A stretch of 23,602 nucleotides of DNA from a virus. The stretch spans positions 1-23,602 of the IMG/VR virus record IMGVR_UViG_3300006789_000162; one strand, given 5' to 3'. The notes below the pieces were generated by a model, which was given only the letters and a program-made list of their open reading frames with translations, had not been told where the DNA came from and did not search any database. A program made the translations under genes and the position numbers. Of this stretch, positions 8,109 to 14,474 are shown piece after piece (positions within the stretch are counted from its first letter, which is position 1; every line of letters starts with the position of its first letter).

Positions 8109-9146
8109 ATGGAGTTTACTTATTCTGTCATAATTCCTACTCACAACGAGATTCGTGACTTAGAGGTTACTGTTGCGATGGTTTGGGCGAGTGAACCACA
8201 ACCACATGAAATAATTGTTGTAGATGATTGTGGCGATGATGGTGTTAAACATCGGCTTCGCTCATTTGGTGGTGTTAAGGTTGTTAAAACACCAGAACGA
8301 TTAGGTCCGGGTGGAGCAAAACGCTTCGGGGCAAACATGGCAACAGGCGATATTATTGTGGTTATGGACTCTCACATGCGAGTCCCACATTCTTGGTTAG
8401 AGACGGTGGACAAAACTATAGATAGATTTCCTGAATCTATTTTCTGTTGTGGTTGCAAAAACTTTACGGGGGATTGGGTTGGTTGTGGTGCTACATTTTC
8501 ACAACCATTGACGGGGAATAGACACGCATTGTTTTCTACACAGACTTGGAAAAACAGAGGTAATCCATTAGAAATAGACCGATGCCCCTCTTTACTGGGT
8601 GGTTGTTATTTTGTACCCAAACATGTATGGGAAGCCCTTGGTGGGCTTAACGACTGTTTATATGGTTGGGGTTATGAGGAACATGACCTATCACTTCGCG
8701 CATACCTTACGGGGTTTGATGTTCGTAGGCTTAACAATCTTGTTCTTTCTCACAGATTTCAGCGAGAACTTAAAGAACCTAAGAAGCCCTTTGTTGGGAC
8801 ACACGCAGAATACAATGCAATGGTTGTGGCTGCATGTATCTTTGAGGACGGTGTGTTTGAAAGGCTGTTCCACCCATTCTACAAGCAGGTTGCTCCTGTC
8901 GCTGCTCTTCTTGCTTTTGAAGATAATTTAGACAACATAAATACTTTTAGAGAATTTGTCCAAAACAGACGAGTCTATTTTGACGAGGACTTGGTGAGTC
9001 TGTGTGATTTTAGATTGCCTTCCAAAAAACACCAACAACAAGTCACAGAACTTATTAAAGAGAAAGAGGCAGAAAACACTTCCAAGAGGCGGAGACGGAA
9101 CAGAAAGTGCATGGAGTGTTCAGAAGAAGAGAAGGTTAAGGCGTAA
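8109..9146 (+). CDS. Family 2 glycosyltransferase (GalNAc-transferase-like, DXH motif)
   Basis: A 345-aa GT-A fold enzyme. Residues 5-48 give the nucleotide-sugar binding start (YSVIIPTHNE, then EIIVVDDCGDD). GPGGAKRFGANMATGDIIVV leads into MDSHM, a D-x-H motif at residues 87-89, as in polypeptide GalNAc-transferases, where it binds the metal and UDP. GGCYFVPKHVWEALGGL and GWGYEEHDLSLR (residues 186-197) form the acceptor/catalytic part, also close to the W-G-x-E-x-x-(D/E)-x-S-x-R block of that group. The protein has many cysteines and a basic tail (RRRRNRK, 327-333). No signal peptide or membrane segment is visible, so it should act in the host cytoplasm. It sits inside a tail gene cluster on the same strand. 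Its target could be a phage tail protein or a host surface structure; the sugar donor is unknown. Confidence 0.85.
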   Translation: MEFTYSVIIPTHNEIRDLEVTVAMVWASEPQPHEIIVVDDCGDDGVKHRLRSFGGVKVVKTPERLGPGGAKRFGANMATGDIIVVMDSHMRVPHSWLETVDKTIDRFPESIFCCGCKNFTGDWVGCGATFSQPLTGNRHALFSTQTWKNRGNPLEIDRCPSLLGGCYFVPKHVWEALGGLNDCLYGWGYEEHDLSLRAYLTGFDVRRLNNLVLSHRFQRELKEPKKPFVGTHAEYNAMVVAACIFEDGVFERLFHPFYKQVAPVAALLAFEDNLDNINTFREFVQNRRVYFDEDLVSLCDFRLPSKKHQQQVTELIKEKEAENTSKRRRRNRKCMECSEEEKVKA

Positions 9147-9147
9147 C

Positions 9148-10092
9148 ATGGCGGTAGTTTTTACTTCACAATTAAAGTCGCTTAATAATAATCTGGTTCA
9201 TAGATATGCTACGTTGTGGAAACTAAGAAGAACCGATGGTGTAACCTTCAGGGTTACAGACCATAATACAGACATCACGTTTCGAGACAAGGTGTACAGC
9301 GCGGCTTCGGGTTTTGAGGCATCTGCCACGCACCGAGAAGGGGGCTTCAATGAATCTAACCAATCGGCAAAAGGAATGGTTGTCCTTGCAGATGAGTCTG
9401 GAATTACAGAAGATGATTTACGGGCAGGAAGATACAGAGACGCAGCAGTAACAGAATATCTTGTCGATTGGCAATATCCGTGGGTCAATGAGTTGTACAA
9501 GACACAATACACCGTCTCCAACCTTGGTTTTTACGACCAAGCGTGGAAGTTTGAATTAGTGGGGCAAACAAGGATGCTTAACCTACCTACAGGGAGAACA
9601 TTCACACGAAACTGTGGGCATGTGTTAGGTGCAAACCATCACACCGTCTATCGAAGAGGGACGGCAGAAGAACAGTTGGCGATGTATGTTCCTCGATGCG
9701 GGTATTCTTTTGATGGAACAACAATGTTTTTAACTACTGTCGCGGTGGGCGGTGTTGCTAGTAACCCAAGACGAAAGTTTAAAGTTGACGATGCTATTGG
9801 TAGTTCTGATAACTGGTTAAAGTATGGGGTGGCTCAATTCCTAACTGGAAATAACGCGGGGTTAAGATATGAGATTGCTAAATCCCTCAAAGACGACAAA
9901 GAAATCACTACCTATCTTGACATGAGTTTTGATGTTGGAGAGGGAGATGAGGTAAGATTGTTTGCGGGGTGTAACAAGACGATAAGTAATTGCAAAAACA
10001 AGTTTAATAATCTCAAAAACTACGGTGGGTTTCCTGATATTCCAGGTGTTGACAGGGCTATATTTATTCCTGACAACAAAAATAGCATATAA
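9148..10092 (+). CDS. Tail hub protein (DUF2163 / phage BR0599 family, RcGTA g13-like) with putative Fe-S cysteines
   Basis: A 314-aa protein. I chose ATG 9148, two bases after the previous stop, not longer readings into the glycosyltransferase gene. The N-terminal half carries the DUF2163 pattern: YATLWKLRRTDGVTFRVTDHN, then VYSAASGFEASA and SGITEDDLRAGRYRDAAV. The C-terminal half carries four cysteines, Cys156, Cys184, Cys275 and Cys282, ending with the NYGGFPDIPG motif. In the Rhodobacter gene transfer agent hub protein and in lambda gpL, four cysteines in the C-terminal domain hold an iron-sulphur cluster; the number and order here fit that, but cluster binding is inferred. The hub joins the distal tail ring to the tip fibre protein. 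The stop overlaps the next gene (TAATG). Confidence 0.85.
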   Translation: MAVVFTSQLKSLNNNLVHRYATLWKLRRTDGVTFRVTDHNTDITFRDKVYSAASGFEASATHREGGFNESNQSAKGMVVLADESGITEDDLRAGRYRDAAVTEYLVDWQYPWVNELYKTQYTVSNLGFYDQAWKFELVGQTRMLNLPTGRTFTRNCGHVLGANHHTVYRRGTAEEQLAMYVPRCGYSFDGTTMFLTTVAVGGVASNPRRKFKVDDAIGSSDNWLKYGVAQFLTGNNAGLRYEIAKSLKDDKEITTYLDMSFDVGEGDEVRLFAGCNKTISNCKNKFNNLKNYGGFPDIPGVDRAIFIPDNKNSI

Positions 10093-10571
10093 TGGCTAGT
10101 ATAACCAGACAAGACGTAGTAGACGCAGCAAGAACCTATTTAGGTGTTCCGTGGGAGTGGGGAGGCAGAAGAGGTTCAGGGACATTGGATTGTGGAGGTT
10201 TAACTCTTGCTATTATAGAAGATTTGGGGCTACAGGAGTTGATGCCTAAGTATGGTAGTGTCCCTACTTGTAAAAGAACTGTCGCAGCAGGGAAAACACA
10301 CCCTAAAAGTATTTATCAAAAGTTTGTAAATGTTCCTTTTATTGAGATACCGAAAGAAGACGCAGGAATCGGGGATGTTGAAGTATACTATATTCGTGAG
10401 AGAGATATTCCCTGTCACTGTGCTATCTTGACGGACAAGGGTATGATACACACCCATCGAGGAGCATTACTGAACCACCAACTCGGTGAGGTGGTAGAAA
10501 CAAAAAGAAGCACATTTTGGGATAAAAGGGTAATAGCCGCATTTAGATACCAAGGACTAAAGGATGGATAG
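10092..10571 (+). CDS. NlpC/P60 tail tip peptidase, copy 1 (RcGTA g14-like)
   Basis: A 159-aa cysteine peptidase. The catalytic cysteine is Cys34 in LDCGGLT. The likely catalytic histidine is His109, held in the unusual triplet Cys-His-Cys (residues 108-110), followed by the IHTH stretch with His120 or His122 as third residue. The N-terminal helix with DAARTYLGVPWEWGGR is the standard lead-in to the NlpC/P60 fold. Members of this family in phage tails cut cell wall peptides near the tail tip during DNA entry. The gene lies between hub and tip protein genes, as g14 does. It overlaps copy 2 by 8 bases. There is no signal peptide, as expected for a virion protein. Confidence 0.88.
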   Translation: MASITRQDVVDAARTYLGVPWEWGGRRGSGTLDCGGLTLAIIEDLGLQELMPKYGSVPTCKRTVAAGKTHPKSIYQKFVNVPFIEIPKEDAGIGDVEVYYIRERDIPCHCAILTDKGMIHTHRGALLNHQLGEVVETKRSTFWDKRVIAAFRYQGLKDG

Positions 10572-11025
10572 TCTAAAGCCCCGAATGGCTGTAGTTGAAT
10601 CAGCGAGAAGGTTTCTCGGTCATCCGTGGGTGCTTGGTGCTAGTGGCTGTTCGGGCGAAGGTATGGATTGTGCAGGACTAATAACAGCAGTAATAGAAGA
10701 TTTGGGGCTACAGGGGGCTATGCCTGAGTACAAACCCACTAGGACTAACAAAGAGGTACTTTTGCCTCACGAAGACCCTAAAAGTATGCTGTCTCTGTTT
10801 AAATTGGCTTTTAAGACAGACATTCCTTTTAACAGTGCGGGGGTTGGGGATGTTGAAGTGTATTGCCTACGAAACACGGATATTTCGTGTCATTGTGCTA
10901 TCTTAACCGATATAGGAATAATACACACCCACAGAGGAGTAGGCAAAGTTGTAGAAACCGAGAGATGTCGCTTCTGGAATAAGCGTAGAAAAGCGGTGTT
11001 TCACCTGAAAGGAATCGAGGACTAA
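10564..11025 (+). CDS. NlpC/P60 tail tip peptidase, copy 2 (tandem paralogue)
   Basis: A 153-aa paralogue of the preceding protein. Cys36 lies in MDCAGL, His110 in the same Cys-His-Cys triplet, and His121/His123 in IIHTHRG, so the catalytic set is intact. Shared blocks are VIEDLGLQ/IIEDLGLQ, GVGDVEVY/GIGDVEVY, the ISCHCAILTD/IPCHCAILTD segment and GKVVETER/GEVVETKR. Identity continues in DNA: a 22-base run beginning atagaagatttggggc is exact at 10215-10236 and 10693-10714. The start ATG is inside the end of copy 1. The N-terminal glycine loop differs (GASGCSGEG against GRRGSGT), so substrate preference may differ. Two peptidase copies at this place are unusual. Confidence 0.87.
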   Translation: MDSLKPRMAVVESARRFLGHPWVLGASGCSGEGMDCAGLITAVIEDLGLQGAMPEYKPTRTNKEVLLPHEDPKSMLSLFKLAFKTDIPFNSAGVGDVEVYCLRNTDISCHCAILTDIGIIHTHRGVGKVVETERCRFWNKRRKAVFHLKGIED

Positions 11026-11027
11026 CA

Positions 11028-14000
11028 ATGGGTAGTGGCAGTCAATGGGGCATGATAATTGGATTTACAGTAGGGGCTATTATTGGTATAGCAACTGGCG
11101 GTGCGTTTTTTGCAGTTATGCAAGCCGCCGCTATTGGCGGGATGATTGGCGGAATCGCAGGTGGAATCATCGACCCAATGGATATGCCGAGCCACACTAG
11201 CACGGGGCAACGTCTTGAAGAACTACAAATCATGGGTGTACAAGAGGGGTCGGGGGTTACTAAAGCATACGGCGACCAGATTCGATTGGGTGGGCAACTA
11301 ATTGGTTGTGGACCTATTGTTGAGACTAGACACGTTACTGAGCAGCCCGATGGTGGTGGTGGTAAGAAATCCTTTTTGGCGGGTACGCCCATAAGAATGT
11401 CAGGCGGAACAGATAAGAGCATCGAGGATATTAAGATAGGAGATATGGTTCGCACAGCGAAGTTTGCGAAGTCAGGTGACGGAAAACTGTGTTTTAGAAA
11501 CCAAAAAGTCACAAACACACTGACAGGTGAAACAAAAAGGGTATTAAAGATTTCAGGAGAAAACTTTTCTTTTTCATGTACGCCCGAACACAGTGTATAT
11601 GGACTAAAGCCAAATAGGGAAGCGGAGTGGTTTACTGCTGAAAGTTTACGGCAAGGCGACAGTCTTCTGTCCGAAAACGGATGGGTAGATGTAATTGATT
11701 GTGAGAGATTTGAACTAGAGGGTAAGACTTACAATTTAACAGTTAAAGAAGATGAAAATTATTTTGCTGATGGTGTTCTTGTACATAATGGTAAGGGCGG
11801 TGGTGGCGATGGTCAAGGAATTACAGAAGTGGTTTATTACACTTATGCAACAGACGTAATGTGTGCCATTTGTGAGGGTCCTCTTCGTAAAGTTAGATAC
11901 ATATACATGAACGGCAAGAGAAAATACAAAAATGTCACTACGGGAGGTATATCAGGTGGGGACTTTACACTCAAATGGTGGGTAGAAATTACAGGAGGCA
12001 CATGGAACACAAAAAACATAACAGTAATTGGACATTTGCGAGTAACACATACAGGCGGCGGGAGTGGGGACTTTAGTTCATTCTCGCCCGGCATGTACGC
12101 TGATTTTGATGGCATAGGGGCTTGTGCGGGTGGCATAGTAGATGCTGTCATCAATGCTAACACAATAGATGTACGAGTGCCTGTCTCTATTTACTATTAC
12201 CAACAAGGCAACAGCAACTGGAGAGGATACTTCAGGGTTAGTGGACTTGGGAATACGGGGGCGCGTTGCCCCGCAGAAGGTCCTTATGTTAGCGGTCACG
12301 ACCATCCAGGTGAGGCTTTGCACTTAGACAGCCGAGAGGATGCGGATGTACATGCCACACCTGATGCGTTTAATCCAAACCTTATGACTAGGATAAAAAT
12401 ATATATAGGGGACGATGGTGGTGATTCTGATTTTAGCCTTGGTTCTCCTAGCATATCTCACCACTACACCAACGCCAGTGCAGATTCACTTTTTCCTAGC
12501 GGGGGCAACTCACCTGCATATCGAGGAATTGCGTATGCAAGTATGCAACAACTTCAACTCCGAGACTTCGGTAATCAGATTCCCCAATTCCAATTTGCGG
12601 TTGATGCCATACCCAGAGAAACAGAAATAAACGGAAACGCCCCAGGAAATGCGGCATACGCAACGCTCGGAATGGTTCTTGATTCGGTGCTAATTAGGCA
12701 AGGGTTCTTGAAGAAAGCAGGAATCGGGGGAACATACACGCCAGGAGACACAATCAACACGGACGAGTTTCAAGCAGTAAACGGAACAAATAGAGTGCGG
12801 GGGTTCACCTCAGCAGGAACTAAAACCGCCAAAGATATTCTATCTACACTTGTTCTTCGTTACGACTTGATGAGTTTTGAACGAAGTGGTGTTCTCTACT
12901 TTACTTCAAGAAACACTACAGCAGACAAAACTATTGACGTAAGTTTATTGGGGGCATCAACTGGCGATAATTCTAGTGTTCCTACTTTTTCACAATCAGA
13001 TAAAGATGACTCTTTACTCCCGAACGAAGTTACTGTTGATTATTATGACGTACAAGACAACTACCAACGCGGAAGTCAAAAATCAACAAGGGCGATAACT
13101 GGTCTTCAAAGAACTACAAAAATTGATGTTGCAATGGGGTTAAGGTCTTATGAGGCACAAGAAATAGCCAATAGGGTCTTATATCAATCACATGCTTACA
13201 GAAAACGCTGTAGGTTTACTCTTCCTCCCTCGGAAATTGACATTCAAGAGAACGATTTACTTCTGGTGTCAGTAAAAGGCGAGGGGTATTCAGTTCGAGT
13301 GCTAGAATTAAGCAGAGGAGCAGACTTTACACATGAAATTGTTGGTCTACTTGAGGGTTCGGAATCTGTTCCGTATGATGGCGAGGGAGACGAAGATTCT
13401 GTCGATATTGATGAGTACGTTCCGCCTATAATGAAAACTCTTGTGATGGACACTTCACCTTTACACGGGGGTGCAGTAACTTCGCCCTCTCATTATATAG
13501 TGTCTTGCACATTAACAGAAGACCAAGAGTTCACCTCGGCAGGTTTGTGGGCTTCAGATGAAAGTGACGGCGTGTATTACCGAGGTCCTAATCTTTCAGA
13601 GGGCATGTTGGTTGAAGTTGATTCAAGTGTCAGCGATGGACCTACTGGCGTGTGGGACGATACAACCGAGATAACTATAAAAGTTCTAGGACCCTTATCT
13701 AGTAATTCCCCCGCAAGTTCTAGTGAAGAGGACGCACTAAACGGGAAAAGCCTATTGTACTTGGAGGGTGAAATAATTGGGTTCAGGGATGTAGAAGGAA
13801 TAGGCGACCGCGAATACAAATTAAGTAAACTTATTCGTGGTATCAGAGGCACAGAACACTATATATCAACCCACACATCTGAGACTTCTACACAACTCGG
13901 TGCTGTTCTTACTTATGCTGATGGTGGGCGAGTGGCTCCTGTTCTCTATTCGCCAGAGAAGATAGGGGAAAATAGATACTATAAAGCAGTTTCCGAGGGG

Positions 14001-14474
14001 GCAACGGTGTCTGATACATCAATGGTTGGTAAACACATATATGGAAATTCCGTTAAGCCGTTTCCTGTGGGGGGGATAAAGGGGTATAAAGACGGTAACA
14101 CTGACGATTGGATAGTAGATTTTGTGCGAGGGGACAGGGCTATTTTTAATCTCATCTCTGCCACAAACACACCTAATACTGACAACACTGAAGTGTATGT
14201 TGCAAATATATATGACCCTTCAGACCTCGGTACAGTTGTTCGCACACTTAACAGCAATGAAGATACTGATGATGGTTCGGGAATTGTGATTACGCAGTAC
14301 AACGTAGATAATGAAACAGAGACTCATCCTCGTCTTACTTATAGTATTGATGACCAAGAAACAGATAGCACAGACGCATTAACTTCTATTGTTGTTGAAA
14401 TATATAAAGTGGGCGAACACATCTCACAAGGCAAATATACACAACACACAATTACCAATACAAGGAAATACTAA
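11028..14474 (+). CDS. Large tail tip attachment protein (RcGTA g15 / lambda gpJ-like) interrupted by a Hint domain
   Basis: A 1148-aa host-contact protein at the tail tip. Residues 8-50 are glycine- and alanine-rich and hydrophobic (WGMIIGFTVGAIIG, AAAIGGMIGGIAGG), resembling the start of RcGTA g15-type 'megatron' proteins. Residues 56-112 continue with TGQRLEELQIMGVQEGSGVTKAYG and GGQLIGCGPIVETRHV. A Hint domain fills residues 115-254. After it the protein resumes in the glycine-rich loop and ITEVVYYTYATDVMCAICEGPL, the strand that normally follows that loop in this family. A central part (about 560-700) with VLIRQGF, STLVLRYDLMSFERSGVLYFTSRN and LPNEVTVDYYD resembles gpJ/DUF-type tail protein domains, and the rest is beta-rich with FERSGVLYF and ILGPLSS-like strands. 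It follows the peptidases, which is where g15 sits. Gene order and flanks make the role confident; receptor specificity is unknown. Confidence 0.85.
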   Translation: MGSGSQWGMIIGFTVGAIIGIATGGAFFAVMQAAAIGGMIGGIAGGIIDPMDMPSHTSTGQRLEELQIMGVQEGSGVTKAYGDQIRLGGQLIGCGPIVETRHVTEQPDGGGGKKSFLAGTPIRMSGGTDKSIEDIKIGDMVRTAKFAKSGDGKLCFRNQKVTNTLTGETKRVLKISGENFSFSCTPEHSVYGLKPNREAEWFTAESLRQGDSLLSENGWVDVIDCERFELEGKTYNLTVKEDENYFADGVLVHNGKGGGGDGQGITEVVYYTYATDVMCAICEGPLRKVRYIYMNGKRKYKNVTTGGISGGDFTLKWWVEITGGTWNTKNITVIGHLRVTHTGGGSGDFSSFSPGMYADFDGIGACAGGIVDAVINANTIDVRVPVSIYYYQQGNSNWRGYFRVSGLGNTGARCPAEGPYVSGHDHPGEALHLDSREDADVHATPDAFNPNLMTRIKIYIGDDGGDSDFSLGSPSISHHYTNASADSLFPSGGNSPAYRGIAYASMQQLQLRDFGNQIPQFQFAVDAIPRETEINGNAPGNAAYATLGMVLDSVLIRQGFLKKAGIGGTYTPGDTINTDEFQAVNGTNRVRGFTSAGTKTAKDILSTLVLRYDLMSFERSGVLYFTSRNTTADKTIDVSLLGASTGDNSSVPTFSQSDKDDSLLPNEVTVDYYDVQDNYQRGSQKSTRAITGLQRTTKIDVAMGLRSYEAQEIANRVLYQSHAYRKRCRFTLPPSEIDIQENDLLLVSVKGEGYSVRVLELSRGADFTHEIVGLLEGSESVPYDGEGDEDSVDIDEYVPPIMKTLVMDTSPLHGGAVTSPSHYIVSCTLTEDQEFTSAGLWASDESDGVYYRGPNLSEGMLVEVDSSVSDGPTGVWDDTTEITIKVLGPLSSNSPASSSEEDALNGKSLLYLEGEIIGFRDVEGIGDREYKLSKLIRGIRGTEHYISTHTSETSTQLGAVLTYADGGRVAPVLYSPEKIGENRYYKAVSEGATVSDTSMVGKHIYGNSVKPFPVGGIKGYKDGNTDDWIVDFVRGDRAIFNLISATNTPNTDNTEVYVANIYDPSDLGTVVRTLNSNEDTDDGSGIVITQYNVDNETETHPRLTYSIDDQETDSTDALTSIVVEIYKVGEHISQGKYTQHTITNTRKY
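11370..11789 (+). other. Hint (intein-like) domain inside the tail tip protein, Ser1 and Gly+1
   Basis: Residues 115-254 of the tip protein, 140 aa, with all Hint blocks. Block A is SFLAGTPIRM then IEDIKIGDMV; block B is TPEH (Thr185-His188); block F/G is TYNLTVKEDENYFADG then VLVHN, ending at Asn254. It is too short to hold a homing endonuclease. Two residues are unusual for a splicing intein: the first is Ser (codon tcc at 11370-11372) not Cys, and the residue after Asn254 is Gly, which has no nucleophilic side chain. Gly at +1 is more like bacterial intein-like (BIL) domains, which cut at one or both ends without efficient splicing. The flanks are glycine-lysine-rich (GGGGKK before, GKGGGG after). 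Family membership is clear from the motifs; whether it splices, cleaves or is inert is not shown. Confidence 0.88.

Follow-up and report, generated by a model that had tools for sequence, protein, structure and literature searches.

A BIL-like Hint domain in the glycine loop of a phage tail-tip protein: a candidate self-cleaving element at the gpI/gpJ junction

Introduction

Phage tail tips have to remain closed until the virion meets its receptor, at which point they open. Splicing by class 1 inteins requires a Cys, Ser or Thr at the +1 position, and acyl-shift chemistry is generally slower with Ser than with Cys as residue 1. BIL domains are reported to lack a +1 nucleophile and to yield mostly cleaved products (PMC7664689), and some A-type BILs are reported to splice without this nucleophile by an alternative mechanism (PMC5874633). 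The gpI protein of phage lambda forms a trimeric plug; it is a separate chain, held to gpJ via β-strand augmentation, and has two hydrophobic helices that may insert into a membrane (PMC11101478, PMC10721106).

Here we describe a Hint domain within a tail-tip gene of an IMG/VR virus record of 23.6 kb, the whole of which is referred to as the window. No report of a Hint domain in a tail-tip protein was found in the open-access literature.

Results

The tip gene of the window is an intact open reading frame for a hub protein of the g15/gpJ type (Table 1), with Phage-tail_3 (Pfam, E 3e-20) and Rcc01698_C (Pfam, E 1.6e-15) domains, an N-terminal plug segment and a glycine loop. The protein matches the PHROG 4271 tail protein (E 8e-83), and its relatives by sequence in the PDB are RcGTA (6tba/6teh) and the megatron (8gtc). 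Since the same gene recurs in other assembled contigs (with a Hint that is 100% identical in L002 and L003) and in diverged sister phages, a chance or artefactual origin was rejected.

Two further features of the tail module were seen. The gene for an NlpC/P60-type tail peptidase is duplicated in tandem (10092-10571 and 10564-11025), the copies being 49% identical and both retaining their Cys and His motifs; only one copy is present in each of the sister phages L102 and L103. A family-2 glycosyltransferase gene (8109-9146) lies between minor tail genes, and both sisters have a conserved counterpart (1108-2184 in L102, 1111-2187 in L103).

Table 1. Features of the tail-tip gene in the window, with the evidence for each.
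Feature	Position	Strand	Evidence
Tail-tip hub protein, g15/gpJ type, 1148 aa, intact ORF	11028..14474	+	Pfam, PHROG, PDB relatives
N-terminal piece, residues 1-114	11028..11369	+	hhalign against gpI; local AlphaFold secondary structure
N-side of glycine loop, GGGGKK	11352..11369	+	Alignment of window, L102 and L103: identical in sister lineage
Hint domain, BIL-like, residues 115-254, 140 aa	11370..11789	+	Pfam, Hint profile, AlphaFold2, Foldseek
Ser1, position of N-terminal nucleophile	11370..11372	+	Invariant in window, L102 and L103
Block B TPEH, Hint residues 71-74	11580..11591	+	Invariant in sisters; TxxH in 68/70 tip Hints
Terminal His139-Asn140, predicted Asn cyclisation site	11784..11789	+	Invariant in sisters and in 70/70 tip Hints
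Gly+1 and C-side of glycine loop, GKGGGG	11790..11807	+	Translation; +1 is Lys in L102 and L103
Large gpJ-like piece, residues 255-1148, 894 aa	11790..14471	+	Domain matches, sister comparison
First predicted strand after loop, residues 266-283, VVYYTYATDVMCAICEGP	11823..11876	+	Alignment; local pLDDT 82-88

The translated junctions of the Hint domain read GGGGKK/SFLAGTPI...TPEH...ENYFADGVLVHN/GKGGGG, and its C-terminal end is NYFADGVLVHN, followed by GKGGGG. A first, sequence-only reading had described a 140-residue Hint within a g15/gpJ-like tip, with an SFLAGTPI start, TPEH in block B, a VLVHN end, Ser as first residue, Gly at +1 and flanking pieces of 114 and 894 residues; the translation matches this description exactly. 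PT-HINT was detected at residues 130-254 (E 1.7e-7, 32 bits against a Pfam cut-off of 27.7), and a Hint profile found the domain at E 7e-38 and gave no second match on the two strands of the window. The AlphaFold2 model of the Hint, built from a 64-row alignment (the window and 63 relatives), has a pLDDT of 88.8 and a pTM of 0.84, and its top solved matches in Foldseek are Tetrahymena BUBL1 BIL2 and the Clostridium thermocellum BIL, with true inteins ranking behind. The 140 residues hold no homing endonuclease, block F reads TYNLTV and has no Cys, and residue 1 is Ser in the window clade whereas almost every other Hint retrieved has Cys there. By its predicted fold, together with Ser1, TxxH, the His-Asn terminus and a seemingly dispensable +1 nucleophile, the domain is probably an A-type BIL.

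Three other assignments were rejected: an ordinary class 1 intein on account of the +1 residue, which is Gly, or Lys in the sisters; a class 3 intein on the presence of Ser1 and the absence of both the WCT pattern and the block F Cys; and a pretoxin HINT protein on the 894-residue tail hub, with no toxin domain, downstream of the Hint.

Where the window has its Hint, the homologous tips of phages and IMG/VR records show a short glycine loop (for example ETKKKQSGGGGGGGGKGGGGGGGSVTTYTYAVHVAVGVCEGP in L012). An insertion in this loop had been suggested from the sequence, and comparison with the Hint-less homologues bore it out by defining clean borders. The strand before the loop finishes with ...VIWAT..ET and the one after it opens with ..TYTYS..AVALCEGP, and RcGTA g15 and the R4C megatron, which are alignable across it, have few residues there. 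A-type BILs are typically found in variable regions of bacterial proteins that are not conserved, which is a trait of distribution and not of chemistry; here the site is fixed in a conserved phage tip protein, and the loop around the Hint varies in length and sequence. The sequence-only reading had also allowed that all relatives might carry the domain; single-sequence and profile searches found no Hint among about 80 other homologous tip loci, and the Hint was therefore rejected as a normal part of the family. RcGTA and about 57 tips have both parts of the protein in one Hint-free chain; the fold therefore does not generally need a cut. Residues 90-106 and 266-283 are both predicted strands with a local pLDDT mostly above 80, and in the model the second is likely the partner of the first; the AlphaFold prediction of the tip (530 aa) is poor overall, with a pLDDT of 55, and was relied on for local strands and helices alone.

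Two sister phages, on contigs of 36.9 kb (L102) and 19.6 kb (L103), carry the Hint at the identical site. Identity between the window and these phages is 64% for the Hint, 60-61% for the N-terminal piece and 43-44% for the C-terminal piece. Ser1, TPEH and HN are unchanged across the window, L102 and L103, which represent two diverged lineages, and the +1 residue is Gly in the window and Lys in each of the sisters. The downstream flank has diverged (GKGGGGDGQG in the window versus KKDSNTTNQG in the sisters). Comparison of L102 with L103 gives a dN/dS of about 0.11 for the Hint, an indicative value from 7 differing codons, and of about 0.66 for the C-terminal piece. As judged from the aligned genes, this conservation has the marks of purifying selection on a functional domain that is passed on vertically and does not use its +1 residue in the chemistry, and the retention of the catalytic residues in diverged sisters makes Hint activity likely.

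The N-terminal piece, which had been called small and membrane-like, corresponds to lambda gpI. It has predicted hydrophobic helices at residues 5-22 and 28-47 and the strand at 90-106 (local AlphaFold features, overall confidence low), a composition that matches lambda gpI. With hhalign, 55 g15-type N-termini aligned to 43 gpI C-termini with a probability of 87.9 (E 3.2e-6, score 39.4), against a top score of 15.6 among 30 column-shuffled decoys; a smaller input of 6 against 5 sequences gave a weak probability of 15, and the match is convincing only with the 55 and 43. By this profile comparison the piece and the C-terminal part of gpI in lambda are homologues, which puts the Hint at the gpI/gpJ junction. 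There is no room for a separate gpI gene between the peptidase and tip genes of the window. From this placement, and by analogy with lambda, we infer that a cut at the junction would recreate the two-chain state of that phage.

Recurrence was examined by a search seeded with the Hint near the gpJ start of L159 (FNIII-A_GpJ, Phage-tail_3, Phage_Tail_Tip). It returned 80 loci, of which 79 were examined and 70 were tip-like by a motif rule, with the Hint in the glycine segment equivalent to that of the window tip; 38 of these 70 Hints are distinct below 90% identity. An HN terminus is present in all 70, residue 1 is Cys in each of the 63 that are complete, and the +1 residue is Ala (52), Lys (11), Gly (6) or Ser (1). 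C1, TPNH and HN are invariant in a sample alignment whose members have 36-81% identity to the first. In contrast, the +1 residue is Cys or Ser in the terminase, IMPDH and helicase Hints that these searches also retrieved. A typical gpJ-type Hint reads MSRIVGAGGGGGG/CFLGHTLVR...FIAGGIRVHN/AGLGLGIAGAGGGGGGKGGGG...VDLISEGEIEGL. In tips of this type the piece before the Hint has 10-36 residues (median 15), the segment after HN carries both gpJ-start flank motifs in 47 of the 61 cases, and in many of the loci a gpI gene, with an end reading ..SGIQNTSRQGLPVPIVYGETLVGSVVISAG.., lies directly upstream of gpJ. The short N-terminal piece and the mostly normal-looking gpJ start after HN favour C-side cutting as a maturation step in gpJ-type tips.

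Another g15-type tip (L260, with Phage-tail_3 and Rcc01698_C) has a Hint in the same loop, with C1 and Gly at +1. In L255, a tail assembly protein that is gpI-like by sequence judgement and has no Pfam gpI match, the Hint (121-251 aa) lies between the N-terminal domain and a hydrophobic segment and is bordered by glycine runs. A genome search with a gpJ-Hint query found three gpJ copies (L267, L268 and L270), all on MAG contigs, and the same search with the window tip as query found no tip Hint. When five Hint queries were compared by tblastn with 50,697 phage records, no tip Hint from cultured phages was among the matches listed; these comprised helicase, terminase, RecA, RNR and similar inteins, unannotated proteins and Erwinia virion proteins. 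A common clade of tip Hints was not rejected against several insertions (AU p 0.55). Judged by these gene matches, Hints are recurrent in the tip genes of uncultured phages, with dozens of cases.

Hints were also seen in other tail proteins. Three tape-measure-like proteins have one near the C-terminus (L126, 1042-1185 aa; L152, 527-658 aa; L179, 617-746 aa), with C1, HN and Val, Ala or Gly at +1. The lambda tape measure is cleaved near its C-terminus, and by analogy these may be another self-cutting tail protein. Fibre-like proteins (L108, L128, L132, L117 and others) have up to four tandem C-terminal Hints, some ending HN-Lys-stop. Very large tail proteins (L089, L092 and L093) carry a complete Hint (HN/GGGGGGG) and then a second, truncated Hint at the end, and L089 opens with a gpJ-like glycine segment. 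In Erwinia phage pEa_SNUABM_1 (L097) a collagen-like protein, annotated only as a virion structural protein, has a C-terminal Hint (C...VLVHN-T).

Discussion

We consider it somewhat more probable than not that the tip protein of the window joins a gpI-like plug segment (residues 1-114) to a gpJ-like hub (residues 255-1148) in a natural fusion, and that the BIL-type Hint between them is self-processing, with cleavage as the main outcome and a two-chain hub like that of lambda as the product. Since Ser1, block B and HN are intact, both Asn254 cyclisation and an N-O shift with hydrolysis would be expected. After folding, the Hint would process itself: on the C-side, cyclisation of Asn254 would break the Asn254-Gly255 bond, and on the N-side, the Lys114-Ser115 bond could be broken by hydrolysis once an N-O acyl shift has taken place at Ser115. 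The resulting gpI-like and gpJ-like chains would stay joined by β-strand pairing, and cleavage would let the plug segment move during DNA ejection; we infer this last step, as we do the cleavage itself and its order. A non-splicing, cleaving outcome had already been proposed from the sequence. The cleavage part has gained weight, in that the closest relatives (BILs) mainly cleave and the catalytic residues are conserved, whereas splicing, which in its normal form that reading did not expect, keeps a minor probability, as some A-type BILs are reported to splice without a +1 nucleophile.

A wider proposal, which we regard as plausible while falling a little short of probable, is that BIL-type Hints at the gpI/gpJ junction or at the gpJ start cut siphophage tips autocatalytically during assembly, so that the hub would end up either in two chains, as in lambda, or with a new gpJ N-terminus, and the plug could move.

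The opposite outcome, in which the Hint splices and one continuous tip results, is unlikely. The freed amine of Gly255 (Lys in the sisters) would attack the Ser115 ester, or some other non-canonical route would rejoin Lys114 to the +1 residue, restoring a normal glycine loop. Splicing by an alternative mechanism is reported for some A-type BILs (PMC5874633), the upstream GGGGKK is conserved and the borders are clean; excision would leave GGGGKK-GKGGGG, an ordinary loop as in the homologues, which counts against cleavage, as do the generally slower acyl shift of Ser1 and the tips that stay fused with no Hint. However, a +1 nucleophile is absent from every lineage of the window site, the downstream flank is poorly kept between sisters, and the gpJ-type tips would gain by splicing merely a peptide of 10-36 residues on an already complete start.

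Nor do we give much weight to an inert or decayed Hint, the two taken together being doubtful. A formerly mobile intein that has lost its +1 nucleophile and its endonuclease, and persists as a tolerated insert, inert or accidentally cutting, is improbable in itself. The catalytic residues are invariant at 64% identity, no part of the tip is better conserved than the Hint, and the same state is found in about 70 other tip genes; these facts have to be set against the lack of an endonuclease, the rarity of Hints among g15-type tips and the weak placement of the window clade among canonical Cys/Ser+1 inteins in one Hint tree. More improbable still is a structural or ligand-binding role, in which an uncleaved Hint fold would decorate the virion tip. 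Such a role would suit a loop of variable length, and many phage fibres end in Hints with almost nothing after them (HN-Lys-end), but it would not need the conserved Ser/Cys1, TxxH and HN. Hedgehog-like ligation, in which an outside nucleophile such as a lysine or a lipid resolves the Ser1/Cys1 (thio)ester and leaves the N-terminal piece covalently on another tail or host component, is very improbable: it would agree with conserved N-terminal acyl-shift residues beside a +1 residue that is not conserved, and with the hydrophobic helices of that piece, but there is no candidate acceptor and the conserved HN indicates C-side cleavage, a reaction absent from Hog domains.

If the self-cleavage reading is true, some phages time or arm their tip by an autocatalytic cut between plug and hub. 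BIL domains, of whose natural roles little is known, would gain a defined structural job, and uncultured phages would have a widespread, undescribed processing step.

The closest known systems each share part of this arrangement. The A-type BILs of C. thermocellum (2lwy) and Tetrahymena (BUBL1 BIL2, 6y75) have the predicted fold of the window Hint (TM 0.78-0.87) and, like it, an HN terminus, an N-terminal nucleophile, no +1 nucleophile and no endonuclease; the window domain differs from them in having Ser rather than Cys at position 1, and in occupying one fixed loop, itself variable in length and sequence, of a structural tail-tip protein where the BILs lie in variable bacterial proteins. With the class 1 inteins of phage terminase, helicase and IMPDH it shares blocks A, B, F and G and a permitted Ser/Cys1, whereas it lacks Cys/Ser/Thr at +1 and any sign of mobility, and its host protein is no nucleic-acid enzyme. 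PT-HINT domains give the best Pfam match above cut-off, yet what follows the window Hint is a tail hub and not a toxin domain. On the side of the tip, RcGTA g15 (6tba/6teh) and the R4C megatron (8gtc) have the same fused domain order and glycine loop, but without a Hint and with a loop of few residues. In lambda gpI/gpJ the N-terminal piece has its counterpart in the gpI C-terminus, the C-terminal piece is a gpJ-like hub and the break falls in the same place; lambda uses two genes, where the window has one gene with a Hint between the two parts. The chemistry is already known; the place, the recurrence and the likely role are new.
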